Positions 31,521 through 46,137 of a DNA stretch of 49,451 bases are shown here, piece by piece. The stretch is from Lachnospiraceae bacterium (GTDB lineage Bacteria; Bacillota; Clostridia; Lachnospirales; Lachnospiraceae). The notes below the pieces were generated by a model that saw only the letters and a program-made list of their open reading frames with translations, did no database searches and was not told the origin of the DNA. Each line of letters begins with the position of its first letter. Within the stretch, counting starts at the first letter, position 1. Location of the stretch: positions 1 through 49,451 of the forward strand of contig JAFZQU010000044.1 of NCBI GenBank assembly GCA_017620255.1, written 5' to 3'. A program made the position numbers and the translations under genes.

Positions 31521-31846
31521 TCCCGGCATTATCCTGTCGGGAGATCGCGGATATCTTCGGGTATATAGAACGGTCGGTCATCTTTTTTCTTACGGTCTGC
31601 GCAAAGAGAAAAATGCCGGAAAACAGGTATGAAGGATGTATGGAAAATCTGCTCTTTCTTATGGAATACCTGTTGCATTACTTTTCTCACCGGGTGAGAA
31701 AGCGTGATCTTTTGCGCCTATATGAGATCGCGATCCATCCGGAACGGTTCAGGCCTGTCAGTATGACGGAATTGATCCGCTATGAGATCAATACGGGACT
31801 GCCCGAAAAAATCCACTTCAGTATGGAATATTATTTTTCCGGATAG
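31406..31846 (+). CDS. Hypothetical protein
   Basis: The protein has 146 residues and starts with TTG at 31406, set seven bases after AGGAGG (AAGGAGGTGATACT), a near-ideal site. The same frame is open further upstream but runs into the terminator at 31288. The sequence is helical: EERRLYLQILDELVLVVPAL, SCREIADIFGYIERSV and FLMEYLLHYFSHRVRKRDLL. No recognised family and no membrane segment are apparent. Its end overlaps the promoter of the exonuclease. Confidence 0.65.
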   Translation: MQEKYNQFFRNARRKGDGSLSEEERRLYLQILDELVLVVPALSCREIADIFGYIERSVIFFLTVCAKRKMPENRYEGCMENLLFLMEYLLHYFSHRVRKRDLLRLYEIAIHPERFRPVSMTELIRYEINTGLPEKIHFSMEYYFSG

Positions 31847-31852
31847 TATAAT
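31847..31852 (+). promoter_or_regulatory. -10 box directly before the exonuclease
   Basis: TATAAT at 31847-31852 ends seven bases before the exonuclease ATG. A transcript from here would begin at or next to the start codon. No good -35 lies 17 bases upstream (TGGAAT), so this may be weak or a chance match. Confidence 0.4.
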
Positions 31853-31859
31853 ACTTTTT

Positions 31860-32822
31860 ATGAATTATATTGTCTTGGACCTGGAATGGAATCAGTCCGC
31901 AGGAAAAAATGATTATGAGCTCCCCTTCGAGATCGTGGAGATCGGTGCGGTTAAGCTTAACCGGAAATTCGAGATCGTAGACCGTTTTGAACAGATCGTA
32001 AAACCGCAGATCTATCATTCGATCCACTTTATGACCTCGAAGATCGTGCATGTAGACAAAGAAGAACTGGATCGCGGAAGACCGTTTCCGGAGGTCATGC
32101 AGGAGTTTTTAAAGTGGTGCGGCAGAAAGTACATTTTCTGTATCTGGGGAACACTGGATCTGACGGAACTGCAGAAGAACATGTGCTATTACGGCATGGA
32201 TGAACTGTCGGCAGGCCCGTTGAAGTATTATGATATCCAGAAATTCTTTTCTCTGACATATGAAGACGGAAAGAGCAGGCGGGCTTTGGAATATGCAGTG
32301 GACCAGCTGCATATCGAAAAAGATATTCCGTTTCACAGAGCGTACAGCGATGCATATTATACGGCCAAGGTATTCATGGAGATCAACCGGAAGGATCCTT
32401 CGGTTGAAAAATATGTATCCTATGACGTCTTTATGGTCCCGCAGAGTAAACGGGAAGAGATCAGGGTCAATTTTAAGACATATGCCAAATATATATCCAG
32501 GGAATTTACGGATAAAACGATCGCAATGGAGGATAAAGCCGTTTCCTCCACGCGTTGCTATGTGTGTGGCCGGACAACGAAAAAGAAGATCAAGTGGTTT
32601 TCGGTAAACGGCAAACATTATTACAGTCTTTCTTATTGTAAGAGACACGGCTATCTGAAGGGAAAAGTCCGTATGAAAAAAACGGACACCGGAAATGTGT
32701 ATGTCGTAAAAACATTGAAACTGATCTCTCCCGAAGAAGCGGCAGAGATCTGGGAAAAACAGGATAAACTCAGAAAGATGCGCGCGGAAAAACGCAAAGC
32801 GCATAAGAGCAGTAAACGTTAA
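31860..32822 (+). CDS. DEDDh 3'-5' exonuclease with C-terminal zinc-ribbon-like region
   Basis: The protein has 320 residues. It has motif I YIVLDLEWNQ (Asp7, Glu9), Exo II around FCIWGTLDLTELQ, and motif III FHRAYSDAYYTAKVF with His and Asp, so it belongs to the DEDDh (RNase T / KapD-like) group that trims nucleic acid 3' ends. After about residue 225 an extra part carries RCYVCGRTTKK and, 20 residues on, SYCKRHGYL, a possible CxxC...CxxH zinc site, and the tail is very basic. The ATG at 31860 has no ribosome site and lies just after a TATAAT. It overlaps the convergent fusion gene by four bases. Confidence 0.85.
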   Translation: MNYIVLDLEWNQSAGKNDYELPFEIVEIGAVKLNRKFEIVDRFEQIVKPQIYHSIHFMTSKIVHVDKEELDRGRPFPEVMQEFLKWCGRKYIFCIWGTLDLTELQKNMCYYGMDELSAGPLKYYDIQKFFSLTYEDGKSRRALEYAVDQLHIEKDIPFHRAYSDAYYTAKVFMEINRKDPSVEKYVSYDVFMVPQSKREEIRVNFKTYAKYISREFTDKTIAMEDKAVSSTRCYVCGRTTKKKIKWFSVNGKHYYSLSYCKRHGYLKGKVRMKKTDTGNVYVVKTLKLISPEEAAEIWEKQDKLRKMRAEKRKAHKSSKR

Positions 32823-34897
32823 AACAGTTTCTTATTCCATTTACGAAATCTTTTTCTCTTCATGCGGGCACGTCTGCGGTCTGAAGTGATATATCTGCGT
32901 ATTCCGTAAATGATCAGCAACAGAACAAATACACAGAACAGACAGAAGCCGATACGAAGGATCATCCGCGTTGTATCAATGAAGATGATCTTATGGTCCG
33001 GCTGTACTTTTCTGGGAAGGATCTTGTCTGAATCCACAAGAATGTTGGCAAACTCAAAAACCCCGCTGCTGTTATCCGCATAGTCGATCGTTGTTTCTCC
33101 GACAAAATGCGAATCGATCGAATAGGTCAGCGTGATCACATCATTGGAGTTGCGGTCGGAATAAGCGATCGAAACAGAGGCGTCTTCAAAAGAAGACAGT
33201 TTCGGGATCACAATATAGCCGTGCGGATTGATGGACAGGATTGGCAGGGATGAACCGATGATATCCAGATTGGTATGAAAGAACGTGGCGCTGTTTAAGG
33301 TATAATTTTTCTCGTGTTCTGCCACGTTCAGTTTCTGGAACTGGTTAAAACCGTAATCAAACAGTTTTTGCGTGTCAATAAACTGATCAGGCGCTTCTTC
33401 ACGCATGATCACACAGATCAGCCGCATATCTCCGCGTTGTGCAAGTGTGACCAGGGTCTGTCTTGCTTCGGACGTATATCCGGTCTTTCCGCAGATCACA
33501 CCGTCATAAGCATATTTGAATCCGGGAAGCATTAAATGGTGATTGTCCAGCTTCCGTTCCTGATACTGTTTGTTTGTAGGCGGGATCGTATAGCGCGTGG
33601 ATCCTGCAATGGTCGCGAGAGAGTCATTTTGAAAACATTCTTTTGCGATGATCGCCAGATCATAAGCAGATGAATAATGATCAGGCTGCGGCAGCCCGTT
33701 TGCATTGGCAAAATGCGTATCTTCACATCCGAGAGCGGCTGCCCTTTCGTTCATCATTTCCACGAAGTGATCATAGGTTCCGCCGATCTGTTCGGCGATC
33801 GCGTAGGCAACTTCATTGGCAGAACCGAGCAGCAGACCGTACAGGCACTGCTCCATGGTCAGCTTTTCCCCCTCATCGATGCCGATCCGGCTCGAAGAAC
33901 TCTCGATATTGAAGATGGAATCATGGGAAAAAGTCACGATATCTTCCATGGTGGAGTTTTCCAGTGCCAAAAGACCCGTCATCAGTTTGGTCGTGCTTGC
34001 AGGATAGAGCCTTGCATGAATGTTTTTTTCGTAGAGGATCGCACCGGTGTCAGCCTCCATCAGGATCGCGGACTCGGCCCCAAGCAACGGGCCCTCCGGC
34101 CATCCGTTGATCTCGTTACTCTCCACGCGCATCAGCTTCCGGTTTTCGGCAGCCAGTGCCTGTTCTTCCGTGGGAACGGTATTTACGGCGCTGACCGTTT
34201 CGGTCAACAGAAGGGATGCCAGAAGAAAACAAAGCACGAGCTTTGTGGCAACCTGCGAAAGGATACATTTACAGATCTTGTTTCCCATACGGGAAAACCG
34301 TTCTTCATATTCCGTCATAATGTTGCCGGCATTCATTTCGGCTTCGGCATGCAGATCATATGTTACACGGTCCACCTTCCAGGAAGCCTCCGGGGCTTCT
34401 GTGAGTGCAAAATCAAACAGATCCGTATTATCTGTTTTAAACTCAACAGATCCGTCTTTTTTCAGGATCTGCTCATAACGATGCAGGAAGGTTCTTGAAG
34501 GGAGCCGGCGTTTGGCGTGGCGGTCTTTGGGCCAGGGATCCGAAAAATTCAGGTAGATCTTTGATACTTCATCCCGGTCAAACACATCCGCGATATTCTC
34601 CGCGTCCATGCGGATAAAGACCAGATTGGAAAGAGGTGTTTCCAACTGTTCCATTTTCTGGATCGCACGCAGGAGTACGGAAGAATACTTTTCGATACCG
34701 ACAAAGTTGATCCCGGGATGGCGCTTTGCCATTTCCATGATAAAACGGCCTTTTCCCATGCCGATCTCCACATGGATCTCATGATCGTTTTCAAAAACAC
34801 GATCCCGGAAATGTCCTTTATATTGTTCCGGTTCATGGAGAACGAAAGGGCTTTTTGCGATCACGTGTCTCGAACCGCTGATGTTTCTGAGTCTCAT
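32819..34897 (-). CDS. trmB: In-frame fusion of tRNA m7G46 methyltransferase (TrmB) and D-Ala-D-Ala carboxypeptidase
   Basis: The single frame has 692 codons. Residues 1 to about 211 are a complete TrmB: VEIGMGKGRF, FVGIEKYSSVLLRA, NFSDPWPKDRHAKRRLP, EFKTDN and IMTEYEERFSRMG. Without a stop it continues into a hydrophobic segment (LVLCFLLASLLLTETVSA, about 220-237) and an S11-type penicillin-binding domain with Ser301-x-x-Lys304 (ASTTK), SAN (359-361) and KTG (471-473). It ends with a C-terminal helix (about 650-672) and a basic tail. TrmB works on tRNA in the cytosol, while the carboxypeptidase trims cell-wall pentapeptide outside. The joint helix could place each on its own side. An internal ATG (Met204, 34288) would give a plain carboxypeptidase with a signal peptide, but it lacks a clear ribosome site. 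Confidence 0.88.
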   Translation of the reverse strand: MRLRNISGSRHVIAKSPFVLHEPEQYKGHFRDRVFENDHEIHVEIGMGKGRFIMEMAKRHPGINFVGIEKYSSVLLRAIQKMEQLETPLSNLVFIRMDAENIADVFDRDEVSKIYLNFSDPWPKDRHAKRRLPSRTFLHRYEQILKKDGSVEFKTDNTDLFDFALTEAPEASWKVDRVTYDLHAEAEMNAGNIMTEYEERFSRMGNKICKCILSQVATKLVLCFLLASLLLTETVSAVNTVPTEEQALAAENRKLMRVESNEINGWPEGPLLGAESAILMEADTGAILYEKNIHARLYPASTTKLMTGLLALENSTMEDIVTFSHDSIFNIESSSSRIGIDEGEKLTMEQCLYGLLLGSANEVAYAIAEQIGGTYDHFVEMMNERAAALGCEDTHFANANGLPQPDHYSSAYDLAIIAKECFQNDSLATIAGSTRYTIPPTNKQYQERKLDNHHLMLPGFKYAYDGVICGKTGYTSEARQTLVTLAQRGDMRLICVIMREEAPDQFIDTQKLFDYGFNQFQKLNVAEHEKNYTLNSATFFHTNLDIIGSSLPILSINPHGYIVIPKLSSFEDASVSIAYSDRNSNDVITLTYSIDSHFVGETTIDYADNSSGVFEFANILVDSDKILPRKVQPDHKIIFIDTTRMILRIGFCLFCVFVLLLIIYGIRRYITSDRRRARMKRKRFRKWNKKLF

Positions 34898-34900
34898 AAG

Positions 34901-35998
34901 TTAACTGTTTTCCTCTGCTTTATGGCGTGTAAACAAACGGTCAAACGGCGAAGGCCGCCCGATCAGGAATCCGAAAAACCGTTTGATCAGGAAGACCATA
35001 AGGGTCGAATAAAGAACCAGAACCAGTACGACGACCAGATAGGAGATATATCCTCTTGCCCGGGTCACATAGCGGTTGACCAGCATGGCAAGGTTCTGGG
35101 CAAGATACAGGATCGTTTCGTTGTTGTGCACAACCATAACGATCAGGGAGTTACATCCAAAGAAGGTAACGGGCTTAAACGGCGGCAGGTTTTTGCACAA
35201 AAGGATCAGCCCGAACGACCCTGAAAGAGCCGAGAGAAAATAGAGCCCGGGGTTGTTCAGGACAAGTGAGCGGAAATCTACCGCGCCGTTGAACCGGTGT
35301 ACAAATACATTGATACCGATGAGCAGAATGCCAAGCAGACCCTCCGGATGGAAATACCGGTCACGCTCCCGGAAAAATCCGTATACAAAATACCCGATCG
35401 CGATGAAAGCGCATCCGAATACGGGACGCATGAGCGTCAGGCACAGGTCATGCAGCCGTTCGCCGATACCCGGCGTAAAGGCAACCCTGCCAAGAAGCAT
35501 ATTACAGACGGTTACGGCTGCCGTTGCCACGAGGATGATACAGGCCGTGATCTTGCCTGAGGTCTTTTTCCGGATCAGAAGAAACAGCATTTCCGCGCCA
35601 AAGAGTGCAGGCAGAAACCACAAAACGTTCATGCCGTGCAGGGAAAGGGTATACCATAACTGCAAATACAGGGTTTCCGCTTTGATATTGCCCCGGATCA
35701 GTGCATAGACCACAACGGAAAGATACAGGAGACTGAACCAGAGATACGGGATCATCAGGGAACGCAACCTGCGCCGGTATAAAGTCTTCATATCTGCCGC
35801 TTCATCATTTTTATACCGGATCAGCATGCCTGAGATCACAAAAAACAAAGGCATATGAAAAGAAAAAATGAAAGTGCACAACGGCAGGATATAGGGAGAA
35901 AGTGAAAAGAACCAGTCTCCCTGCAGATGCCCGAGGATCACCAGAAAAATGCCGATCCCTTTGGCCGTATCAAAATAAGTCAGTCTTTTTTGCGCCAT
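34901..35998 (-). CDS. Acyltransferase-3 family membrane protein
   Basis: The protein has 365 residues with about ten helices. It begins RLTYFDTAKGIGIFLVILGH, the standard start of acyltransferase-3 enzymes, with the conserved His at the end of helix 1, then FSFHMPLFFVISGML and RLRSLMIPYLWFSLLY. Members O-acetylate or O-succinylate wall or exopolysaccharide sugars using an acyl donor from the cytosol. A paralogue lies directly upstream and overlaps it by 19 bases. It lies three bases before the TrmB-carboxypeptidase frame, so a cell-wall role is suggested. Confidence 0.88.
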   Translation of the reverse strand: MAQKRLTYFDTAKGIGIFLVILGHLQGDWFFSLSPYILPLCTFIFSFHMPLFFVISGMLIRYKNDEAADMKTLYRRRLRSLMIPYLWFSLLYLSVVVYALIRGNIKAETLYLQLWYTLSLHGMNVLWFLPALFGAEMLFLLIRKKTSGKITACIILVATAAVTVCNMLLGRVAFTPGIGERLHDLCLTLMRPVFGCAFIAIGYFVYGFFRERDRYFHPEGLLGILLIGINVFVHRFNGAVDFRSLVLNNPGLYFLSALSGSFGLILLCKNLPPFKPVTFFGCNSLIVMVVHNNETILYLAQNLAMLVNRYVTRARGYISYLVVVLVLVLYSTLMVFLIKRFFGFLIGRPSPFDRLFTRHKAEENS

Positions 35999-37047
35999 AA
36001 GATTGTTCCTTTTCCCAGCATAAACGGGAAAAACCGATGTATGATCACGATGATCAGGGCCTCAAACAGGAATGTAAAGGCCATGATATTAAACAGAAAA
36101 ACATAGTGTTTGGCGCGGGTCACGATCGTATCGATCTGCCACGCGATCAGGATGGCAGCGTAGAGAACGTATGTGTTGACATGCGTTGCCATGACGATCA
36201 GGGAATTCCTTCCGAAAAACAGGAGCGGATCCAGATATTTCATACGGATGTTTTTGCTGATCAGGATCAGGGATGCGGAACCAAGGAACGCGCACAGATA
36301 AAACAAAGGCACATTTCCAAGGACCAGATAATGGAAGTCCACACAGCCGTTGATCTGCGACAGGAACATATTGATCAGGAACATTACAATACCGGTGATC
36401 AGTTCCGCAAGGGAAAACGAACCGGCGCGCAGAAGCAGCGGATAGAGGGTATAGGCAAGGCCTACAAAAGACATTGCGATGAAGCCTCTTAAGAACACGC
36501 GCAGGAAATCGATCAGGGTCGTAATGACCAGAGAACTCTCATGGGCAGTGTAGATGCCTTTTACGGAAAGCTGCACAAGATAGGACAGGATCGCCAGAAT
36601 AAACACAACCGGAAGACATATCCAGTCAGGCAGTTTCTTTTTCAGGAACAGAAAACCGATCTCCGCGATGAAAAGAGCCGGCAGGAACCATAGAACGGAT
36701 ACGCCGTAAAAGGTAGCAGAAGCGATCAGGTCTTTTACAAACGTAAGCTCTGTGATCTTGCCGCGCCAGACATTGAAGATATCGATGAAAAAGTACAGAA
36801 GACTGAACCAGAAATACGGGATCAGGATCCCGCGCGTTTTTTTCTTAAGAAGCGTATCAAAAGAAAGAGAATCCTCCTGTTTGTGTGCGAGCAGGATACC
36901 GGATACGATAAAAAAGACCGGCATATGAAAAGAAGAGAGCCAGGTTCTTAAGGGGTCGGAAATATACTCGATATGCCCGAGAACAACCAGGATGATGCCA
37001 AAGGCCTTTACCAGGTCCAGGTATTGTAAACGTTTTGACTGTTCCAT
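35980..37047 (-). CDS. Acyltransferase-3 family membrane protein
   Basis: The protein has 355 residues from the ATG at 37047, which follows GGGAGAATCATT; the frame is open for 59 codons further up with no site. It shares the layout of its downstream paralogue: RLQYLDLVKAFGIILVVLGH, SSFHMPVFFIVSGILL, FWFSLLYF and a C-terminal FFGRNSLIVMATH. It is likely a duplicate with a different acceptor or position preference. It is first in a minus-strand run of three genes with a TATAAT at 37079-37084. Confidence 0.88.
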   Translation of the reverse strand: MEQSKRLQYLDLVKAFGIILVVLGHIEYISDPLRTWLSSFHMPVFFIVSGILLAHKQEDSLSFDTLLKKKTRGILIPYFWFSLLYFFIDIFNVWRGKITELTFVKDLIASATFYGVSVLWFLPALFIAEIGFLFLKKKLPDWICLPVVFILAILSYLVQLSVKGIYTAHESSLVITTLIDFLRVFLRGFIAMSFVGLAYTLYPLLLRAGSFSLAELITGIVMFLINMFLSQINGCVDFHYLVLGNVPLFYLCAFLGSASLILISKNIRMKYLDPLLFFGRNSLIVMATHVNTYVLYAAILIAWQIDTIVTRAKHYVFLFNIMAFTFLFEALIIVIIHRFFPFMLGKGTILWRKKD

Positions 37048-37174
37048 AATGATTCTCCCATCCCATCCATTGTAAAAAATTATATGGAAAAACACAAGAA
37101 AATTAAACCTTTTATTTCCTATTGAAATGTTGTATGATACAACGGAATATAGACGAAGATCAAGAGGATAAAAA
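37048..37174. promoter_or_regulatory. Divergent promoter region between acyltransferase and Mrp operons
   Basis: On the minus strand TATAAT lies at 37079-37084 with TTTAAT-type -35 about 17 bases upstream. On the plus strand TATGAT lies at 37133-37138 with a weak TTTTAT at 37110-37115. The stretch is much richer in A and T than the Mrp genes. No Na+- or pH-responsive element was recognised. Confidence 0.55.
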
Positions 37175-37639
37175 ATGTTCTTACTGCTGTTTGCCGCCTG
37201 GGTGATCTTTAACGGCGCCTTCACATGGGAAATTGCATTATTTGGCTTGGGAATATCGGGAATCGTCTATTTTTTCGCATGCCATTTCATGGACTTTTCG
37301 ATCCGGAAAGACATAAGGTGCATCAAAAAATCGGGTATTTTCTGCTGGTTTGTTGCTGCGCTGTTTGTGGAGATCGTGAAAGCAAATCTTGTTACGGCCA
37401 AATGGATCCTGACCAACCGGTACGAGATCGAACCGGTTCTCGTGACTTTTCAAATGCATTTTAAGACCAATATCGCCAGAGTGCTGTATGCAAATTCCAT
37501 CACGCTGACGCCGGGGACCATTACGGTCAAACAGGAGGGAAATACATATACGGTACATGCACTGGAACGTTCTTATGCCGAGGATATCAACGGCGGAAAG
37601 ATCGCGGAGATCCTGTACAGACTGGAGGCGGACGAATGA
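37175..37639 (+). CDS. mrpE: Mrp/Mnh antiporter subunit E
   Basis: The protein has 154 residues. Two N-terminal helices are followed by a cytosolic alpha/beta part with ILTNRYEIEPVLVTFQ and ANSITLTPGTITV, the hallmark of MrpE/MnhE. It begins a ten-gene plus-strand operon with the order E-F-G-D'-E'B-C-D and then further large subunits. MrpE is needed for assembly and full activity of the multi-subunit cation/proton antiporter. The ribosome site AAGAGG is well placed. The stop overlaps the next start as ATGA. Confidence 0.93.
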   Translation: MFLLLFAAWVIFNGAFTWEIALFGLGISGIVYFFACHFMDFSIRKDIRCIKKSGIFCWFVAALFVEIVKANLVTAKWILTNRYEIEPVLVTFQMHFKTNIARVLYANSITLTPGTITVKQEGNTYTVHALERSYAEDINGGKIAEILYRLEADE

Positions 37640-37926
37640 ATCAGATCCTGATGATCGCGATCGGTATCTTATCGATATTTTTATTGATCTGCCTGATCCG
37701 GGCCGTCATCGGTCCGTCGATCGCCGACCGGATCGTATCCGTCAACATGATGGGAACGATCGTAATGGTCATTATCGCCATGCTTGCCATTCTGCTTCAT
37801 GAAGGATATCTGGTGGATATCTGTATCATCTATGCCATGATCAGTTTCCTGGCAGTCGCCACATTGACCAAGATCTTTCTCGGGATATACAGAAAAAGAA
37901 AAGAGAGGGGGACGGAAAATGATTAG
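37636..37926 (+). CDS. mrpF: Mrp/Mnh antiporter subunit F
   Basis: The protein has 96 residues and three helices. LLICLIRAVIGPSIADRIVSVNMMGT, seen in two pieces around GPS, is the MrpF signature with the conserved G-P-S-x-x-D-R. It ends with basic residues. It overlaps mrpE by four bases and mrpG by eight. Confidence 0.92.
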   Translation: MNQILMIAIGILSIFLLICLIRAVIGPSIADRIVSVNMMGTIVMVIIAMLAILLHEGYLVDICIIYAMISFLAVATLTKIFLGIYRKRKERGTEND

Positions 37927-38269
37927 AACGATCATTGCTGCGGCATTCATCATTTTCGGTCTGCTTCTGTTTGCCGTGGAGATCTACGGTGTGAACCGCT
38001 TTTCCTTTATCATGAACAGAATGCACGCCGCCGCGATCGGGGACACGCTGGCTATGATGTCCTGTATGGCGGGGCTGATCATATATTCGGGTTTTAATTT
38101 TACCAGTCTGAAACTGTTGCTGGTCGTTGTATTCCTGTGTTTTTCCTCTCCGGTTTCCTCACATCTGATCATGAATCTTGAGGTGGAGACCAACGAAAAA
38201 GCAAACACGCACTACGAGGAAGAAACGCTTACGGACGAAGACGACCGGTTGGATGACGAGGAGGCGTAA
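37919..38269 (+). CDS. mrpG: Mrp/Mnh antiporter subunit G
   Basis: The protein has 116 residues and three helices, with a long acidic C-terminal tail (ETNEKANTHYEEETLTDEDD) unusual for MrpG. RMHAAAIGDTLAMMSCMAG is the family's conserved H-A-A/G-x-x-D block, and FLCFSSPVSSHLI is the second one. The stop codon directly abuts the next start (TAAATG). Confidence 0.9.
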   Translation: MIRTIIAAAFIIFGLLLFAVEIYGVNRFSFIMNRMHAAAIGDTLAMMSCMAGLIIYSGFNFTSLKLLLVVVFLCFSSPVSSHLIMNLEVETNEKANTHYEEETLTDEDDRLDDEEA

Positions 38270-38524
38270 ATGGATATCATCAATTATATTTTACTTGGGA
38301 TCCTGCTGATCTGCGCCATTTCTGTCAGCTTTTCCAAAAACCTGCTGAATTCGATCATTATCTACATGGCGTTCAGCCTGATCATGTCGATCATCTGGAC
38401 GATCCTGGAATCGCCCGATCTTGCGATCACGGAAGCTGCGGTCGGCGCGGGTGTGACCAGTCTGCTGTTTTTTGTGACGCTCAAACGGATCCGTGCCGTG
38501 AAGGGGGATGAGGAAAATGAGTAG
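38270..38524 (+). CDS. MbhD/DUF4040-type subunit (MrpA C-terminal part)
   Basis: The protein has 84 residues and three helices. IIYMAFSLIMSIIWTILESP, then DLAITEAAVGAGVTSLLFFV, is the DUF4040/MbhD core, normally the C-terminal part of MrpA or subunit D of membrane-bound hydrogenase. Here it is a separate gene, as in the Mbh order. It overlaps the start of the next gene by eight bases. Confidence 0.88.
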   Translation: MDIINYILLGILLICAISVSFSKNLLNSIIIYMAFSLIMSIIWTILESPDLAITEAAVGAGVTSLLFFVTLKRIRAVKGDEENE

Positions 38525-39482
38525 ATTAAGACCATCCCATCAGAACAAACGGGAGTTCCGGTTTAAGGAATGGATGGACGGAAGCGTCGATCCGTATCTG
38601 GGCAATCTGGAAATGAAACCGCAGCAGCTGACGGAAGAAACAAAGGAGCAGTTTGATGAACGTATACAGGATTATGTCAGACTGAATGCGGAACTGTATG
38701 ATACGGAAAAGAACAAAGGCGTCCGGATGTTCCGGATCCTCTACAGGATCAGCAGTGTGATCTGGATCGCGCTTCTGATCGGCGTGATGCTTTTAACGGT
38801 ATCGCATCTGCCGCCGAACGGAGACCCTGACAATCCGGTAAACAACGAAGTTTCGAAACGCTATATCGAGCAGGGCCTTCAGGAAACCGGCGCTGTCAAC
38901 ATCGTCACGGGCATGATCTTAGACTACAGGGCGTTTGATACCTTCGGGGAATCCAACGTACTGTTCATCGCGACGGTAACGGTTCTGATCCTGCTGCGTA
39001 AAAATCAGAAGATGCACAATGAAAAGGATATGAAAGAGGATCAGGATGATGAGAAATATGAGCCGCAAAGCGACACGATCCTGAAAACGGTAGCCAAGGT
39101 TCTTGTTCCCGTGATCTTTGTATTCGGTCTGTATGTGATCCTAAACGGACACCTCGGACCCGGGGGAGGATTTTCCGGTGGCGCCATTATGGGCGCAGGG
39201 CTCATTCTCTACTGCATCACATTCGGTTTTGAAAAAACGGAACGCTTTTTTACGGAAAAGACTTATAAATGGATCAGTTTCACCGCGCTTTCGGTTTACT
39301 GCCTTTCCAAGGCGTATTCCTTCTACACGGGCGCAAACGGGCTTCACAGTCATATTCCGCTTGGGACGCCCGGTGCGATCCTGAGCAGTGGTCTGATCTT
39401 TGTGCTGAATATCTGTGTCGGCATGGTCGTAACCATTACCATGTACACGTTTTACGCCATGTTTCGTAAAGGAGATTTTTAA
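38517..39482 (+). CDS. Fused MbhE-like and MnhB/MbhF subunit
   Basis: The protein has 321 residues from the ATG at 38517, preceded by GAGGAAA. After a charged 75-residue N-terminus, the MbhE-like part shows NPVNNEVSKRYIEQGLQETG and DYRAFDTFGESNVLF. After an acidic linker the MnhB part shows LNGHLGPGGGFSGGAIMGAG and PLGTPGAILSSGLIF. In Pyrococcus Mbh these are two subunits, E and F; in Mrp they are the end of MrpA and MrpB. The fusion here is a variant worth noting. Confidence 0.87.
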   Translation: MSRLRPSHQNKREFRFKEWMDGSVDPYLGNLEMKPQQLTEETKEQFDERIQDYVRLNAELYDTEKNKGVRMFRILYRISSVIWIALLIGVMLLTVSHLPPNGDPDNPVNNEVSKRYIEQGLQETGAVNIVTGMILDYRAFDTFGESNVLFIATVTVLILLRKNQKMHNEKDMKEDQDDEKYEPQSDTILKTVAKVLVPVIFVFGLYVILNGHLGPGGGFSGGAIMGAGLILYCITFGFEKTERFFTEKTYKWISFTALSVYCLSKAYSFYTGANGLHSHIPLGTPGAILSSGLIFVLNICVGMVVTITMYTFYAMFRKGDF

Positions 39483-39856
39483 TGGGAAGCAACCTGTTTA
39501 CAAATTACGGAGAGGCAGTAGCCATGATCCTGTTTGCGATCGGGCTCTCCAATCTGATGCTCCAGAAAAACCTGATCAAAAAGATCATCGGGTTGAATAT
39601 CATGGATTCCGCCGTATATCTCTTTCTTGCCGAGAAAGGGTATATCCGCGGGCATGTGGCGCCGATCATTGTTAACAACGTACAGTCAACGGATGCCTAT
39701 ATCAATCCGATCCCGGCGGGACTTGTGCTGACAGGTATCGTTGTTTCGGTTTCCGTTACGGCGCTGATGCTTTCCCTGACGATCCGTCTCTACAGGCGTT
39801 ACCAGACGCTGGACCTTGATGAGATCTCCATGAAGTTGAAGCAGGAGGGACAATGA
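39482..39856 (+). CDS. mrpC: Mrp/Mnh subunit C (NuoK-like)
   Basis: The protein has 124 residues and three helices. GLSNLMLQKNLIKKIIGLNIMDS, in two parts around KNLIKK, and DPLPQAL-like AYINPIPAGLVLTGIVVSVS match MrpC/MbhG, a relative of NuoK. In the usual protein the last block reads DPLPQALVLTAIVI; the change to NPIPAGLVLTGIVV keeps the pattern. Start and stop overlap both neighbours (TAATG, ATGA). Confidence 0.9.
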   Translation: MGSNLFTNYGEAVAMILFAIGLSNLMLQKNLIKKIIGLNIMDSAVYLFLAEKGYIRGHVAPIIVNNVQSTDAYINPIPAGLVLTGIVVSVSVTALMLSLTIRLYRRYQTLDLDEISMKLKQEGQ

Positions 39857-41349
39857 TGGCGTTCTATCAGAACATCCCCTTCTTTTCCATATTTCTGGCC
39901 ATGTTTTCCGGAACAATATCCTCGGTGCTCCCGCGGAAAGCCGCGCGCATCCTGAATGTTGTGGTGGTTTCCCTGATCATGGCAGCATCTGCGGTTCTGA
40001 CCGTGATCCTTTACGGGCAGGGGCGGAGCTATACCTTTATGATGGGACATTTCCCGGCGCCTTTCGGAAATGAGATCAGGGCCGGTGCGCTGGAAGCCGG
40101 TATGGCCTGCTTTTTCTGTCTGATCATGCTGCTTTCCATGCTCGGCGGACGCAAAAAACTGGACGAGGAAGTGGAGGAGACAAAGCACAATCTGTACTAT
40201 GTGCTGGTCAATCTTCTGCTCAGTTCGCTCTTAGCCATGGTCTATACAAATGACCTGTTTACCGCATACGTCTTCGTGGAGATCAATACGATCGCAGCCT
40301 GCGGGCTGATCATGATCCGCCAGATCGGCCGTACCATTGAGGCGGCGGTCCGGTACATGATCTTAAGCCTGCTCGGATCCGGTCTCTTTCTGGTCGGACT
40401 GGTCCTGTTATATGATCTGACAGGACATCTGTTGATGTCCAATATACAGGAATCTGTCGGCATGCTCATAGAGAACGGCGAATATACGATCCCGCTCCTT
40501 GTGACGATATCCCTGATGTCTGCGGGACTTGCCATCAAAAGCGCACTTTTCCCTTTCCATGCGTGGCTGCCGGATGCATATGGTTATTCCACGGTCAGTT
40601 CCGCTGCGCTTTTATCGAGTCTGGTTTCCAAGGGCTATATCTTCCTGCTGATCAAGATCTACTACCGTGTGATCGGGATTGATTTTATCAGACACAACAA
40701 ACTGATAGACGTGCTTTTTATCTTCGGACTTTCGGGAATGATCTTCGGATCGATCAGCGCGATCAGGGAGAACGATATCCGGCGTATGATCGCCTATTCT
40801 TCCGTGGCGCAGATCGGATATATCTATATGGGGATCGGTATGGGAACGCAGGATGCGATGATCGCTTCCGTTTATCATATTCTGATGCACGGCGCGACCA
40901 AATCCCTGCTTTTCATAGCAGCGATCGGACTCACGGACGTATCCGGCTACAGCAGGCAGTTTATACAGATCACGGGAGCCGGATACCGGAATAAGATAGC
41001 CGGCGTCGGCTTTACGGTCGGAGCTTTGTCCATGGTGGGATTCCCCTGCTTTTCGGGCTTTATTTCCAAACTGCTCTTTGCGCAGGCGGCGATCCACAAT
41101 ACCGGGAAAATGCTTCCCACGCTGATCGTCTTAGGGATCAGTACGATCTTAAACGCGATCTATTTTATGAAGACCGTGCTTCGGATCTATACACCGGTTG
41201 CGGATTCGGATTATCCGGTGCTGCATATGAAGGATCAGAAACTGTATTCCGGTGTGATCATTGCTTTTGTGATCACAAACCTGCTCCTCGGACTGACCTC
41301 CGTGTTTATTGAGGAATGGATCCGCAGGGGACTTATCGTATTCGGTTGA
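39853..41349 (+). CDS. mrpD: Mrp/Mnh subunit D-like antiporter subunit
   Basis: The protein has 498 residues and about 14 helices. TAYVFVEINTIAACGLIMI carries the functional Glu of helix 5. PFHAWLPDAYGYSTVSSAALLSSLVSKGYIFLL, split here by G-Y, is the helix 7-8 region with the key lysine. PCFSGFISK near residue 400 is the usual later block. It is the first of four large ND2/4/5-type subunits. The start is set by GGAGGGACA. Confidence 0.93.
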   Translation: MMAFYQNIPFFSIFLAMFSGTISSVLPRKAARILNVVVVSLIMAASAVLTVILYGQGRSYTFMMGHFPAPFGNEIRAGALEAGMACFFCLIMLLSMLGGRKKLDEEVEETKHNLYYVLVNLLLSSLLAMVYTNDLFTAYVFVEINTIAACGLIMIRQIGRTIEAAVRYMILSLLGSGLFLVGLVLLYDLTGHLLMSNIQESVGMLIENGEYTIPLLVTISLMSAGLAIKSALFPFHAWLPDAYGYSTVSSAALLSSLVSKGYIFLLIKIYYRVIGIDFIRHNKLIDVLFIFGLSGMIFGSISAIRENDIRRMIAYSSVAQIGYIYMGIGMGTQDAMIASVYHILMHGATKSLLFIAAIGLTDVSGYSRQFIQITGAGYRNKIAGVGFTVGALSMVGFPCFSGFISKLLFAQAAIHNTGKMLPTLIVLGISTILNAIYFMKTVLRIYTPVADSDYPVLHMKDQKLYSGVIIAFVITNLLLGLTSVFIEEWIRRGLIVFG

Positions 41350-41363
41350 TTTTGGAGGAGCTT

Positions 41364-42683
41364 ATGAGTGAACAGTTTGTACTGTTTTATCTGACAAGGA
41401 AACTTCCGATCATGTTCCGGTTTGACCGGATGGGCATGATCTTTGCGGCGGTCAGCACACTGATCTGGATCCTGTGCGCCGTCTATTCGGTGGCCTATTT
41501 TAAGGGTGATAAAAAGATCAAACGGTATGCGATCTTCTATACGATCACGCTCTTTATCATATTGGGCCTTGATTTTGCAGGCAATCTGATCACATTTTAC
41601 CTGTTCTACGAGCTGATGACTCTGTTGTCGGTTCCGCTTGTGTTCCATAATGAGACGAAAGAAGCGATCATGGCCGCACTCAAGTATCTGTTTTATTCGC
41701 TTTGCGGTGCTTATATGGCCCTGTTCGGCCTGTATTTTATCTACCGTCATTCAGAAACGATCGAATTCACGCCGGGTGGCGTGCTTTCTGCGGCGATCAC
41801 GCCGGAGAACCAGACGATCCTGCTTGTTGCGGTTTTATCCATGATCCTCGGCTTTTCCGTGAAGGCAGGCATGCTGCCGATGCACGCCTGGCTTACCAGT
41901 GCACATCCTGTTGCACCGGCGCCGGCATCGGCCTTCCTTTCGGGCATTATTGTAAAAGCCGGTGTTTTGGGCATTGTCCGTACGATCTTCTATATCGCGG
42001 GACCGGAAGTGATCCGCGGTACCTTTGTACAGTATGTACTGCTGACGCTGTCCATAGCCACGATCTTCTTAGGATCCATGCTGGCCTTCAGGGAGCGGCA
42101 GTTTAAACGGCGGCTCGCTTATTCCACCGTCAGCCAGGTTTCCTATATTCTTTTCGGTCTTTTCCTGCTTGATCCCGTCAGCCTGACAGGTAGCCTTCTG
42201 CACGTGATCTTCCATGCAGTGATCAAAAGCGCCCTGTTCTTATGCGCCGGCATCGTGATCCATGAGACCGGCAGGGAATATGTGGACGAACTGGCCGGGA
42301 TCGGAAAACAGATGCCCGCCGTGCTTGCAAGCTTTGCAGTCGTGAGCATGGGTCTGGTGGGTATCCCGCCGCTTTCCGGTTTTATCAGCAAATGGTATCT
42401 GTGTGTCGGCAGTCTGCAGGAAGCGATCCCTGTTTACTCTTATCTGGGACCCGTCATCCTGCTCGTCAGTGCCCTGTTAACGGCAGGCTATCTGCTGCCG
42501 ATCGTGATCAAAGGATTTATTCCCGGCGATGCGTGTGAGGAAGGATCGCTTACAAAGATCCATGTCAGTGCCTGGATGCTGGTTCCGGTAGTGATCCTTG
42601 CGATCTTAACGATCATATTCGGCGTATGTCCCGGCACGCTCATCCGTCTGTTCATGAGTGTGGCGGAAGGCCTGGTAGGATAA
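41364..42683 (+). CDS. NuoL/M/N-type antiporter subunit (second large subunit)
   Basis: The protein has 439 residues from the ATG at 41364 behind GGAGGAGCTT. FYLFYELMTLLSVPLVFHNE provides the helix 5 Glu, MLPMHAWLTSAHPVAPAPAS and GIIVKAGVLGIVR provide the helix 7-8 region with the Lys, and FKRRLAYSTVSQVSY is another family signature. HPVAPAPAS is nearer NuoL/HyfB-like proteins than the MrpD just upstream. It has about 12-13 helices and no appended domain. Confidence 0.9.
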   Translation: MSEQFVLFYLTRKLPIMFRFDRMGMIFAAVSTLIWILCAVYSVAYFKGDKKIKRYAIFYTITLFIILGLDFAGNLITFYLFYELMTLLSVPLVFHNETKEAIMAALKYLFYSLCGAYMALFGLYFIYRHSETIEFTPGGVLSAAITPENQTILLVAVLSMILGFSVKAGMLPMHAWLTSAHPVAPAPASAFLSGIIVKAGVLGIVRTIFYIAGPEVIRGTFVQYVLLTLSIATIFLGSMLAFRERQFKRRLAYSTVSQVSYILFGLFLLDPVSLTGSLLHVIFHAVIKSALFLCAGIVIHETGREYVDELAGIGKQMPAVLASFAVVSMGLVGIPPLSGFISKWYLCVGSLQEAIPVYSYLGPVILLVSALLTAGYLLPIVIKGFIPGDACEEGSLTKIHVSAWMLVPVVILAILTIIFGVCPGTLIRLFMSVAEGLVG

Positions 42684-42693
42684 AAGGAGTATT

Positions 42694-44169
42694 ATGACGA
42701 AATATTTACCCCTGATCACGATCCTGCTTCCGATCTTCGGAAGCATCCTGATCCCGCTGGTACGCTTCAAAAGCCGCAGGGTCATGTGCATCTATACGGA
42801 AGCACTTGTGATCGTCAATTCCATACTGGTATTTCTGACCATCCTGTTTGACCGGCAGATCGTGTGTGAAGTGATCCACTTTACCGGAGATCTTTCCATT
42901 TCTTTTGTAATGGACGGGCTGTCGGTTGTATTTGCAGGGCTGGTTGCTTTTTTGTGGCCGCTTGCGACGCTGTATTCCTTTGAATACATGAAAAAAGAAG
43001 AGCATGAGAATATCTTCTTCCTGTTCTTCGTGATGACATACGGCGTGACGCTTGGCATAGCCATGGCGGAAGACTATATCACCATGTACTGTTTCTATGA
43101 GTTCCTGACGATCGTAACGGTGCCGCTGGTCATGCATACCCTGACAAGAGAAGCGATCCTGGCGTCAAGAAAATATCTGTATTATTCCCTCGGGGGTGCG
43201 GCGTTTGCTTTTATTTCCCTGATCTTCATCATCAAATACGGAACAACAAACAAGTTTATCTTCGGTGGCACGCTCGATCCGGCCCTGATCGGTGACCGTA
43301 CCAACGTACTGCTTTTGATCTATGTATTTGCGTTTTTCGGATTTGGCGTAAAGGCTGCGCTTTGTCCGTTTAATTCCTGGCTTCCGTCCGCTTCGGTCGC
43401 ACCGACGCCCGTCACGGCACTGCTGCATGCGGTCGCAGTCGTGAAAGCCGGGGCCTTTGCGATCCTCAGGATGACCTACTACAGTTTCGGTGCTGATTTC
43501 CTGCGCGGAACCTGGGCACAGTATGTGGTGATGACCGCAACGATCATAACGATCGTTTACGGCTGTTCGCGGGCGTTAAAGGAAACACACTTCAAACGGC
43601 GTCTGGCTTATTCGACGATCAGTAACCTTTCCTATATCCTGTTTGGCTGTGCGCTCATGACACCGCTCGGTATGACGGGTGCGATCACCCATCTTGTTTT
43701 TCATGCGCTGATGAAGATCACCTCGTTTTTCTGTGCCGGCGCCGTAATGCACCAGACAGACAGGCATTATGTGTATGAACTGGACGGATTGGGACGTAAG
43801 ATGCCCGCGACTTTTACGATCTTTACGGTCTCATCCCTGGCGCTGATGGGCGTTCCGGGATTTGCCGGGTTTATCAGTAAATGGAACCTGGCAGCGGCAG
43901 CAGTCGACAGCGGAAACGGACTGGCGTATACCGGTGTGGCAGCATTGCTTGTCAGCGCGCTTTTGACAGCGATCTATATGTTGAGCGTTGTGATGCGTGC
44001 GTTTTTCCCGGGGAAAGATTTTGATCCCAAACAGGTTGCAAATTGTAAAGATCCCAACTGGATCATGCTGGTCCCGCTTGCGATCTTCGCGATCGTTGTT
44101 TTGCTGTTCGGTGTCTGCTCTGCGCCGCTCACCGATTATTTTGCCGGCGTGGCAGCAGGGACTTTTTAG
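42694..44169 (+). CDS. NuoL/M/N-type antiporter subunit (third large subunit)
   Basis: The protein has 491 residues. MYCFYEFLTIVTVPLVMHTL is the helix 5 Glu region; LCPFNSWLPSASVAPTPVTA and VAVVKAGAFAILR are the channel helices with Lys. FKRRLAYSTISNLSYILFG resembles the second subunit more than the first, so subunits two and three are likely duplicates. The start is behind AAGGAG. The spacing to neighbours is ten bases or less, as in the rest of the operon. Confidence 0.9.
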   Translation: MTKYLPLITILLPIFGSILIPLVRFKSRRVMCIYTEALVIVNSILVFLTILFDRQIVCEVIHFTGDLSISFVMDGLSVVFAGLVAFLWPLATLYSFEYMKKEEHENIFFLFFVMTYGVTLGIAMAEDYITMYCFYEFLTIVTVPLVMHTLTREAILASRKYLYYSLGGAAFAFISLIFIIKYGTTNKFIFGGTLDPALIGDRTNVLLLIYVFAFFGFGVKAALCPFNSWLPSASVAPTPVTALLHAVAVVKAGAFAILRMTYYSFGADFLRGTWAQYVVMTATIITIVYGCSRALKETHFKRRLAYSTISNLSYILFGCALMTPLGMTGAITHLVFHALMKITSFFCAGAVMHQTDRHYVYELDGLGRKMPATFTIFTVSSLALMGVPGFAGFISKWNLAAAAVDSGNGLAYTGVAALLVSALLTAIYMLSVVMRAFFPGKDFDPKQVANCKDPNWIMLVPLAIFAIVVLLFGVCSAPLTDYFAGVAAGTF

Positions 44170-44178
44170 AGGAGATAT

Positions 44179-46137
44179 ATGGGCACTATCACATTTGGCT
44201 TGAACGAAATATGCGGCTTCGGACTGCGGTTCACACTGGACGGATTCCGCGTCCTGTATGTTCTGATCGCGACTTTTATGTGGGCGTCTTCCATGCTGTT
44301 TTCTCTGGAATACATGCATCATTACACCCACAAAGTCCGTTATTACGTTTTTTCCGCAGTGACTTATGTTGCGACGGCAGGCGTCTTTCTGTCGGCGGAT
44401 CTGCTTACGACGTTTGTCTTTTTTGAGATCATGTCACTGACTTCTTATGTATGGGTGGTGCAGGATGAGCGAAAAGAGTCCTTAAGGGCAGGCGACACCT
44501 ATCTGGCAGTCGCCGTGATCGGCGGTCTGGTCATGCTGATGGGCATCTTTATGCTCTATGTGAAAACCGGCACCACGGATCTTACCGCAGTCGGGTTTGA
44601 CGGAAGCAGCGTATCTTTTTTGGCCGGCGTCCTGATGCTGTTTGGCTTCGCCGCAAAAGCCGGTGGTTTTCCGCTGCATATCTGGCTGCCAAAAGCACAT
44701 CCCGTTGCGCCGGCACCCGCATCCGCACTTTTATCCGGTATCCTGACAAAGGCAGGCGTTTTCGGCATTCTGCTGCTTAGCTGCTATATGTTCTACGGAT
44801 CCGAAAAATGGGGGACCCTGATCCTGACTATCGGTGTGATCACGATGTTCCTCGGCGCCCTGCTGGCTCTGTTCTCAATTGACCTGAAGCGGACACTGGC
44901 CTGTTCCTCCGTATCCCAGATCGGTTTTATCCTGACGGGGATCGGTATGTACGATCTGCTCGGAGCAGAGAATACGCTGGCCGCGCGTGGTACGCTGATG
45001 CACATGGTAAACCATTCCATGATCAAGTTGCTGTTGTTCATGGCGGCGGGCGTTGTCTATATGAACCTGCATGAACTGGATCTGAACAAAATACGCGGAT
45101 TCGGAAGAAAGAAACCGTTGCTGAAAGTACTGTTTCTGTCGGGCGCGCTTGGGATCGGCGGTATTCCGCTCTTTAACGGCTATATCAGTAAGACGCTGAT
45201 CCATGAGAGCATCGTGGAATACAGGGAACTGTTGGAAGAAGGACATGCGGTCCCGTTTGTCTACGGTACCGGCATGGTGACCCTGATCGAATGGATCTTT
45301 ATCATCAGCGGCGGGATCACCGTTGCATATATGACGAAACTGTTTGTTTCGCTCTTTATTGAGGAAAACAGGGACGCCGGAAGACAGCGTTCCTTTGATG
45401 AAAATCATACATATATGAACCGGCTGAGTGCGGCCGTTTTAATACTGCCTGCAGTCTTTATGCCGCTTGCGGGCATGCTGCCGCATGTGGTCGCAGATTC
45501 GGTCATGGATCTGGGACAGGGATTTTTACGGATCGAAGAAGCGGAGAGGATCGCTTATTTTTCGGGCACCAATCTGCTCGGCGGTTTCTATTCGATCCTG
45601 ATCGGTGCTTTCCTATACTTCGTGGTCGTGCGGAAATGTCTGATGAAAGACGGTGAGTATGTGAACCGCTGGCCGAAATATCTGGACCTGGAAGAGTCTT
45701 TCTACAGACCGCTTTTGCTGGTGATCCTGCCGGCGATCTGCACGTTCGTGTGCCGCATAGCGGATAAACTGGTCGATCTGTTAGTACCCGTTCTGTTACA
45801 GATCGGTGTATTCTTCTGCAGGATCTTTGACCGTCTGGTCGATCTTGCCGTTGTCGTGCTCAGGAAGACAGTCTTCAAAGAAGAACGGCTGCCGCAGGAG
45901 ATGATCGAAGGCAATCCGTTTTCACATCTGGTTGGCGGGTATATGGACCGCACGATCCATTTCCTGAACGAAACGGTTTGGGAATACCGGCCCAGAAAAG
46001 AAAACGCGGAGCATAAACTTGCCATGCAGACCACATGGATTTCCGAAAACTATTCGATCATCGGCAGGTCTCTGTCCTTTGCGCTTGCGCTTGCAGGCAT
46101 GGGTCTGATCCTGATCCTGCTCTACATGCTGATCTGA
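44179..46137 (+). CDS. NuoL-type antiporter subunit with extended C-terminus (fourth large subunit)
   Basis: The protein has 652 residues. VFFEIMSLTSYVWVVQDERK is the helix 5 Glu region, GFPLHIWLPKAHPVAPAPAS and GILTKAGVFGILL hold the Lys, and LKRTLACSSVSQIGFILTG is the HDCTG-type helix block. After about residue 480 a C-terminal extension of 170 residues contains two similar amphipathic pieces, CRIADKLVDLLVPVLL and CRIFDRLVDLAVVVL, and ends with another helix. In NuoL and MrpA a long lateral helix lies in this place, so the extension may clamp neighbouring subunits. It is the last gene of the operon. Confidence 0.9.
   Translation: MGTITFGLNEICGFGLRFTLDGFRVLYVLIATFMWASSMLFSLEYMHHYTHKVRYYVFSAVTYVATAGVFLSADLLTTFVFFEIMSLTSYVWVVQDERKESLRAGDTYLAVAVIGGLVMLMGIFMLYVKTGTTDLTAVGFDGSSVSFLAGVLMLFGFAAKAGGFPLHIWLPKAHPVAPAPASALLSGILTKAGVFGILLLSCYMFYGSEKWGTLILTIGVITMFLGALLALFSIDLKRTLACSSVSQIGFILTGIGMYDLLGAENTLAARGTLMHMVNHSMIKLLLFMAAGVVYMNLHELDLNKIRGFGRKKPLLKVLFLSGALGIGGIPLFNGYISKTLIHESIVEYRELLEEGHAVPFVYGTGMVTLIEWIFIISGGITVAYMTKLFVSLFIEENRDAGRQRSFDENHTYMNRLSAAVLILPAVFMPLAGMLPHVVADSVMDLGQGFLRIEEAERIAYFSGTNLLGGFYSILIGAFLYFVVVRKCLMKDGEYVNRWPKYLDLEESFYRPLLLVILPAICTFVCRIADKLVDLLVPVLLQIGVFFCRIFDRLVDLAVVVLRKTVFKEERLPQEMIEGNPFSHLVGGYMDRTIHFLNETVWEYRPRKENAEHKLAMQTTWISENYSIIGRSLSFALALAGMGLILILLYMLI

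Follow-up and report, generated by a model that had tools for sequence, protein, structure and literature searches.

Two groups of described proteins come closest to the product of a gene at positions 32819 to 34897 of contig JAFZQU010000044.1, from a Lachnospiraceae bacterium (assembly GCA_017620255.1); we call the whole 49,451-nucleotide stretch analyzed here the window. One is TrmB, the tRNA (guanine46-N7)-methyltransferase, represented by PDB entries 7nyb and 2fca of Bacillus subtilis. The other comprises the Peptidase S11 DD-carboxypeptidases, such as B. subtilis DacB (3mfd) and Escherichia coli PBP5. With TrmB, the window protein shares the whole catalytic domain, the signature motifs, and a score above the NCBIfam equivalog cut-off, but its TrmB half is followed, with no intervening stop, by a membrane segment and an enzyme of an exported type. 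With the S11 carboxypeptidases, it shares the SxxK, SxN, and KTG motifs, the S11 fold, and the C-terminal hydrophobic segment; unlike them, this half has no start codon of its own, has lost most of the n-region of its signal peptide, and carries that signal internally, behind TrmB.

A different natural TrmB fusion, the PrmC-TrmB bifunctional protein (NCBIfam NF002421), is on record, but there the partner is a cytosolic methyltransferase and TrmB forms the C-terminal half; the window protein scores below the NF002421 cut-off. Cleavage inside a longer protein is described for LtaS of Staphylococcus aureus, where, according to the accessible text of that report, the signal peptidase SpsB cuts behind the membrane domain (PMC10865820); unlike in the fusion, the N-terminal part of LtaS is a polytopic membrane domain and not a cytosolic enzyme. 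As for trmB itself, the accessible portion of another report places it in an operon with the cell-cycle gene ccrZ, conserved across Firmicutes, and describes a pneumococcal trmB deletion without a growth defect (PMC8387234). A full-text literature search, judged by titles and the beginnings of abstracts and with most subscription journals outside its coverage, returned no published trmB-carboxypeptidase fusion.

One frame encodes TrmB and a DD-carboxypeptidase

A preliminary description of the window, made from its letters alone, had placed TrmB motifs and all three penicillin-binding motifs in one uninterrupted frame. The frame, the domain profiles, and the motif positions bear this out: positions 32819 to 34897 of the minus strand hold a single ATG-to-TAA frame of 692 codons encoding a complete TrmB followed by a complete exported-type DD-carboxypeptidase. 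Its parts are as follows.

32819 to 34897, minus strand: trmB-dac fusion gene, 692 amino acids (aa), recognized from the frame and from full-length homologs in genomes G010 (locus L034) and G050 (locus L033)
34253 to 34897, minus strand: TrmB part, residues ~1 to 215, complete through its natural C-terminal strand (profiles, conserved columns, and a cropped structure model)
34187 to 34252, minus strand: residues 216 to 237, once the carboxypeptidase signal peptide and now lacking a start codon, with the core LVLCFLLASLLL (34205 to 34240) and ending in VSA
34181 to 34198, minus strand: retained signal peptidase I-type site, TVSA-VN, with a putative cut between residues 237 and 238 (pattern and its conservation)
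33398 to 34084, minus strand: Peptidase_S11 (DD-carboxypeptidase) catalytic domain, with SxxK at 33986 to 33997, SxN at 33815 to 33823, and KTG at 33479 to 33487
32909 to 32965, minus strand: C-terminal transmembrane segment of the carboxypeptidase, residues 645 to 663 (hydropathy, and a helix at 642 to 691 in the whole-protein model)
32822 to 32908, minus strand: very basic C-terminal tail, residues 664 to 692, presumably cytoplasmic; unfused orthologs have similar basic tails

The first half reaches equivalog level for TrmB, with 189.2 bits against NF001080 (cut-off, 132; residues 17 to 208) and 167.7 bits against TIGR00091 (cut-off, 112.65), and carries the TrmB motif NFSDPWPK at residues 117 to 124. 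Pfam places Methyltransf_4 at residues 40 to 210 and Peptidase_S11 at residues 272 to 500. The second half has both the S11 profile and the three DD-carboxypeptidase motifs, at residues 301 to 304 (SxxK), 359 to 361 (SxN), and 471 to 473 (KTG). By sequence, the best PDB matches are tRNA (guanine-N7)-methyltransferases (7nyb, 2fca, and 1yzh) and, for the second half, DacB (3mfd).

Across the five fusions that we found (see below), SxN and KTG are kept in every case, as are the C-terminal hydrophobic segment and the basic tail, and the TrmB half departs by only two single residues over 68 columns in which at least 95% of 44 unfused TrmB sequences agree. In the window's own genome (G000), the fusion is the only strong TrmB match; the sole other Methyltransf_4 match there scores 19.9 bits, under the family cut-off of 24. 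G010 has one short match above that cut-off (28.1 bits, profile positions 6 to 63) and two below it, and no second TrmB was found in G050, a genome that is 79% complete. At least two other S11 genes accompany the fusion in G000.

The same frame in other genomes of the genus

Named bacterial genomes were scanned for full-length homologs carrying both domains, a search that the preliminary description had proposed, and 37 genomes of the window's genus were then searched. Two metagenome-assembled genomes (MAGs) of the genus carry the fusion over residues 1 to 692: Lachnospiraceae bacterium RGIG10225 from yak rumen (JAGCXZ010000121.1, L033; 84% identity) and uncultured Lachnospiraceae bacterium RUG12462 (CACZBD010000004.1, L034; 76% identity). 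The frame is thus present in 3 of the 37 genomes (G000, G010, and G050; clade A); 26 others have a separate carboxypeptidase match, 4 have only a TrmB match, and 4 have neither (E≤1e-70). All three clade A frames are exactly 692 aa long. Since the identical frame recurs at 84% and 76% identity, it is not a chance one. Nonsynonymous divergence (dN) within the clade is 0.05 to 0.29, and synonymous divergence (dS) is at least 0.96 in each section compared, the junction included.

These genomes also bear on whether close relatives have two genes separated by a stop, as the preliminary description had allowed. The two closest relatives are fused, at equal length, while in the unfused genomes of the genus the genes are divergent or lie on different contigs and never form a same-strand pair with a stop at this junction. 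An assembly or sequencing artifact that masks a stop or frameshift is scarcely credible on this evidence. The genomes with the fusion are drafts in many contigs, and the two named ones are MAGs, which favors such an error; yet the fusion occurs in five genomes of two genera, the clade A length stays constant at 76 to 84% identity, and dN is low across the join. Assembly error is rejected by the recurrence in five genomes of two genera. Profiles, motifs, and two relatives with the identical fusion support the claim that full-length TrmB is genuinely fused in frame to an exported, penicillin-binding-protein-type carboxypeptidase.

A second, independent fusion

In a second genus of Lachnospiraceae, 2 of the 62 genomes searched carry the fusion, G344 (669 aa) and G760 (671 aa), which are 75% identical (clade B). 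Each of the two has one TrmB match at E≤1e-60, the fusion itself, and no looser TrmB search was made there. Within clade B, dN is 0.11 to 0.29; dS is 2.1 and 3.0 in two of the four sections and saturated in the other two.

In a tree built from both halves (49 rows), clade A with its three fusions and clade B with its two stand apart among unfused genomes, each clade with bootstrap support of 100. A single clade of all five was rejected for the concatenation (approximately unbiased [AU] test, p-AU = 2.5e-87; 49 rows) and for each half (p-AU = 0.005 for TrmB, 49 rows; p-AU = 5.6e-5 for S11, 54 rows), the AU tests being two-tree comparisons on quick trees. The fused state requires two changes on each of the three trees (concatenated, TrmB, and S11). 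Comparison of sequences thus indicates that the same fusion arose at least twice independently in Lachnospiraceae. Descent of both clades from one fused ancestor, or transfer of the fusion from one to the other, is rejected by the AU tests on the concatenation and on each half.

Wider scans added no further case. None was found at E≤1e-85 in 398 sampled genomes of the phylum; beyond G344, there was no full-length fusion among the matches listed for 392 sampled genomes of the order, nor in 397 sampled genomes of the family (cut-off, 1e-116). As a rule, two candidate places per genome were scored in these scans, so weaker or unsampled fusions could exist.

Gene order and a flipped trmB

Where the two genes are separate, they are commonly divergent neighbors, and this holds for the clade B genus more than for the window's genus. 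Among 56 genomes of the clade B genus with matches, 47 have the genes divergent and less than 700 bases apart, 1 has them divergent but further apart, 2 have them on the same strand, 4 have them on different contigs, and 2 are fused. Of 33 such genomes in the window's genus, 12 have a close divergent pair, 1 has a divergent pair with a wider gap, 12 carry the genes on separate contigs, 3 have the fusion, and 5 gave a match to one of the two genes only. Two genes flank the fusion in the window.

31782 to 32822, plus strand: RNase_T-family exonuclease gene, a conserved flank on the carboxypeptidase side that serves as a synteny anchor
34901 to 35998, minus strand: acyltransferase-3 gene just upstream of the fusion, across a 3-nt gap, with a same-cluster gene on the TrmB side in unfused relatives

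In clade A loci, the exonuclease gene borders the carboxypeptidase side, and trmB alone is reversed in the fused loci. An acyltransferase-cluster gene lies on the TrmB side in 8 of the 13 unfused loci of the window's genus that hold both genes; orthology of these genes is not established because the cluster was grouped by single linkage. In clade B, a gene of cluster c2 lies on the carboxypeptidase side and a peptidase-like gene of cluster c10 on the TrmB side, an arrangement recurrent in many unfused relatives, sometimes with extra genes between, and trmB is again reversed in the fusions. A tRNA-Lys(CTT) gene stands on the TrmB side, oriented like the carboxypeptidase gene, in all 13 clade B and outgroup loci scanned; at L108:8319-8392 and L145:11957-12030, it precedes the two clade B fusions by 139 and 155 bases.

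Comparison of loci shows a reversed trmB between conserved flanks in both fused clades. On the 49-row tree, the orientation of trmB changed at least five times between divergent and same-strand with trmB first, a count that takes in the two fusion clades. Upstream of the clade B fusions, the DNA contains a TrmB-like leader and the tRNA-Lys gene; a by-eye reading against four unfused relatives, without alignment, showed no clear remnant of the old carboxypeptidase start.

The acyltransferase-3 gene next to the fusion is one of two in tandem on the minus strand (34901 to 37224), ending 3 nt before it. Same-cluster genes occur on the TrmB side in several unfused relatives.

The junction retains a signal peptide core and a putative cleavage site

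In the clade B genus, 9 of the 16 unfused loci have a TrmB that ends exactly in CKLIASR and a stop; in the two fusions, CKLIASR leads directly into the hydrophobic core, so that the join falls where the TrmB stop usually lies. In clade A, unfused TrmB ends are variable (e.g., CKCIIRV followed by a stop in G013), and the fusions read CKC[IV]LS[QR][VI] into the core.

Signal regions were compared over 54 loci, with L036 excluded because its region was misplaced by the script. The fusions have lost the signal-peptide start and most of the basic part but retain the hydrophobic core, whose mean 12-residue hydropathy is 2.79 (range, 2.55 to 3.09), compared with 2.68 (range, 1.92 to 3.48) in 48 unfused sequences. 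A VxA follows the core in 5/5 fusions, and [VAIL]xA stands there in 45/48 unfused orthologs; in the unfused orthologs of the window's genus, the signal peptide ends in VYA-VN or similar. In none of the fusions does the export signal stand at the very N terminus with its own start: core and VxA are internal, and the start codon is lost in all five. All five nevertheless fit the signal peptidase I substrate pattern (a basic residue, a hydrophobic core, a small residue at -1, and a V/A-like residue at -3), which is a simple one. At the clade B site, the flanking residues differ between the two species and two residues have been inserted, with V at -3 and A at -1 unchanged.

We consider it probable that signal peptidase I cuts between TrmB and the carboxypeptidase, after VxA (residues 237/238). 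The former signal peptide might instead have become a stable anchor, giving an uncut bifunctional membrane protein with TrmB on the inner face and the carboxypeptidase on the outer face. Many proteins combine an N-terminal domain in the cytosol with one membrane helix and an outer domain, and a modeled helix of 20 residues (219 to 238, cropped model) or 32 residues (207 to 238, whole-protein model, low confidence) could serve as the anchor. We regard this as unlikely, since an anchor would not need VxA, and VxA is kept in all five fusions of two origins despite the changes around the clade B site.

The preliminary description had seen one joint helix serving both as the C terminus of TrmB and as the signal or anchor of the carboxypeptidase. 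Part of this stands. The cropped model (9 rows; predicted local distance difference test [pLDDT], 81) shows the TrmB fold with its last strand at 209 to 215 and a helix at 219 to 238; the helix coincides with the old signal-peptide core, but TrmB's own last element is the strand. In the whole-protein model (22 rows; pLDDT, 76; predicted template modeling score, 0.49), in which the S11 domain is mostly above pLDDT 90, a single low-confidence helix (207 to 238) covers the TrmB end and the signal core, and the last TrmB strand is drawn as helix. All 50 listed fold matches of this model are S11 structures matching the carboxypeptidase half, with no TrmB structure among them. Permanent tethering of TrmB to the membrane, the consequence drawn earlier from the joint helix, is possible; the retained signal peptidase-like site suggests that the enzymes may be cut apart.

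Internal translation starts

An internal start could additionally yield a separate carboxypeptidase, giving two proteins from one frame, which we judge quite improbable. Candidate codons exist in the window: Met204 (34286 to 34288), the start named in the preliminary description; GTG 221; TTG 231; and TTG 271, which has GGAGG at -5. The other two clade A fusions, however, have Ala in place of Met204, and no Shine-Dalgarno-like sequence precedes this codon in the window; we reject Met204 as the carboxypeptidase start on account of its lack of conservation. TTG 231 occurs in each of the three clade A fusions, at the end of the core, but lacks a Shine-Dalgarno match; TTG 271 follows the signal and is peculiar to the window. 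Both clade B fusions carry AAGGA ahead of their own start; AGGAG precedes a candidate carboxypeptidase start in 8 of 16 unfused relatives, and neither fusion junction has such a match. In G760, a GGAG at -2 before ATG 228 is too close. No conserved internal start with a Shine-Dalgarno match was found in the fusions.

A model for the origin and layout of the fusion

We propose that trmB and an S11 carboxypeptidase gene were ancestrally divergent neighbors and that trmB flipped where it stood. The two joins would lie, respectively, at the trmB stop or directly beside it and within the n-region of the carboxypeptidase signal peptide, leaving one frame. The inversion may have taken one step, or a flip may have been followed by a deletion. 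A single polypeptide would be translated from the trmB start; TrmB (residues ~1 to 215) would fold in the cytosol, and the former signal peptide, now internal, would direct the remainder through Sec. The carboxypeptidase would then face the wall, held by its C-terminal transmembrane segment. Signal peptidase I, probably cutting after VxA, would leave a TrmB that carries the signal helix as a short membrane tail and a normal mature carboxypeptidase. A genuine, conserved fusion, its origin by in-place inversion of trmB, and the layout with TrmB inside and the carboxypeptidase outside are, in our judgment, very likely.

Several observations weigh against this model. We infer the export, topology, cleavage, and activity of the fusion products, and we know of no tested case of a signal peptidase cutting behind a folded cytosolic enzyme of 215 residues. 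The uncharged run around the core averages 16.4 residues in the fusions and 16.3 in unfused proteins, a measure that alone cannot separate a cut signal from an anchor. The S11 half departs in nine cells (four columns) over the five fusions, among 54 columns invariant in unfused relatives, including a Gly-to-Cys change in all three clade A fusions. Linkage is not universal in the window's genus, as the two genes lie on different contigs in 12 of 33 genomes. Nor is the acyltransferase flank of clade A constant: of the 8 unfused loci with such a gene, 6 have it oriented as in the fusions, and 5 of 13 have a different gene at that place. Unfused same-strand pairs, trmB and then dac, exist (G782, G779, L035, L036, L037, and L039), so flips also occur without fusion, which counts against taking a single-step inversion for granted. 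Finally, the clade A fusion's own start has a weak or absent Shine-Dalgarno match in all three genomes, and 10 of 18 unfused clade A relatives show none before their start, so that the Shine-Dalgarno argument against internal starts is weak in this clade.

Among the same-strand pairs, the open frames of L036 and L039 (Lachnospiraceae, trmB and then carboxypeptidase) overlap by 4 bases, which would allow translational coupling.

Other genes of the window and other S11 frames

On the plus strand, positions 37175 to 46137 hold a Mrp/Mnh-type cation antiporter-like cluster (MNHE, MnhB/MbhE, and three Proton_antipo_M among the proteins scanned), followed by a gene for a phosphoenolpyruvate-utilizing enzyme at 46181 to 47803. 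Elsewhere, S11 carboxypeptidase matches in G170:C9, G424:C8, and G712:C12 lie in open frames of about 900 codons, far longer than usual.

Accident or selected link

The fusion may simply be a tolerated accident of a recurrent gene flip, without physiological meaning, which we find rather probable; this is compatible with the model above, and the likelihoods of the two are not to be added. The genes were already neighbors, trmB changed orientation repeatedly, the fusions are rare (3/37 and 2/62 genomes), and if signal peptidase cuts, the products are nearly ancestral. Against this, both of the independently formed fusions have survived to a high level of synonymous divergence while their two halves stayed conserved. 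That same conservation makes it possible that selection ties tRNA modification to wall trimming; the data fit equally well with an accident that signal peptidase renders harmless. The most far-reaching reading, a polyprotein with an internal signal peptide that fixes a 1:1 ratio, places TrmB at the membrane export site, and evolved at least twice because coupling the two activities is useful, seems to us unlikely.

The gene joins two enzymes that have to act on different sides of the membrane, and the join came about twice in nearly the same form. Automatic annotation may label such proteins by one half only. The fusion offers a testable case of gene birth by in-place inversion of a neighbor, of a signal peptide placed internally after a folded cytosolic enzyme, and of the way in which the export machinery deals with a chain of this kind.

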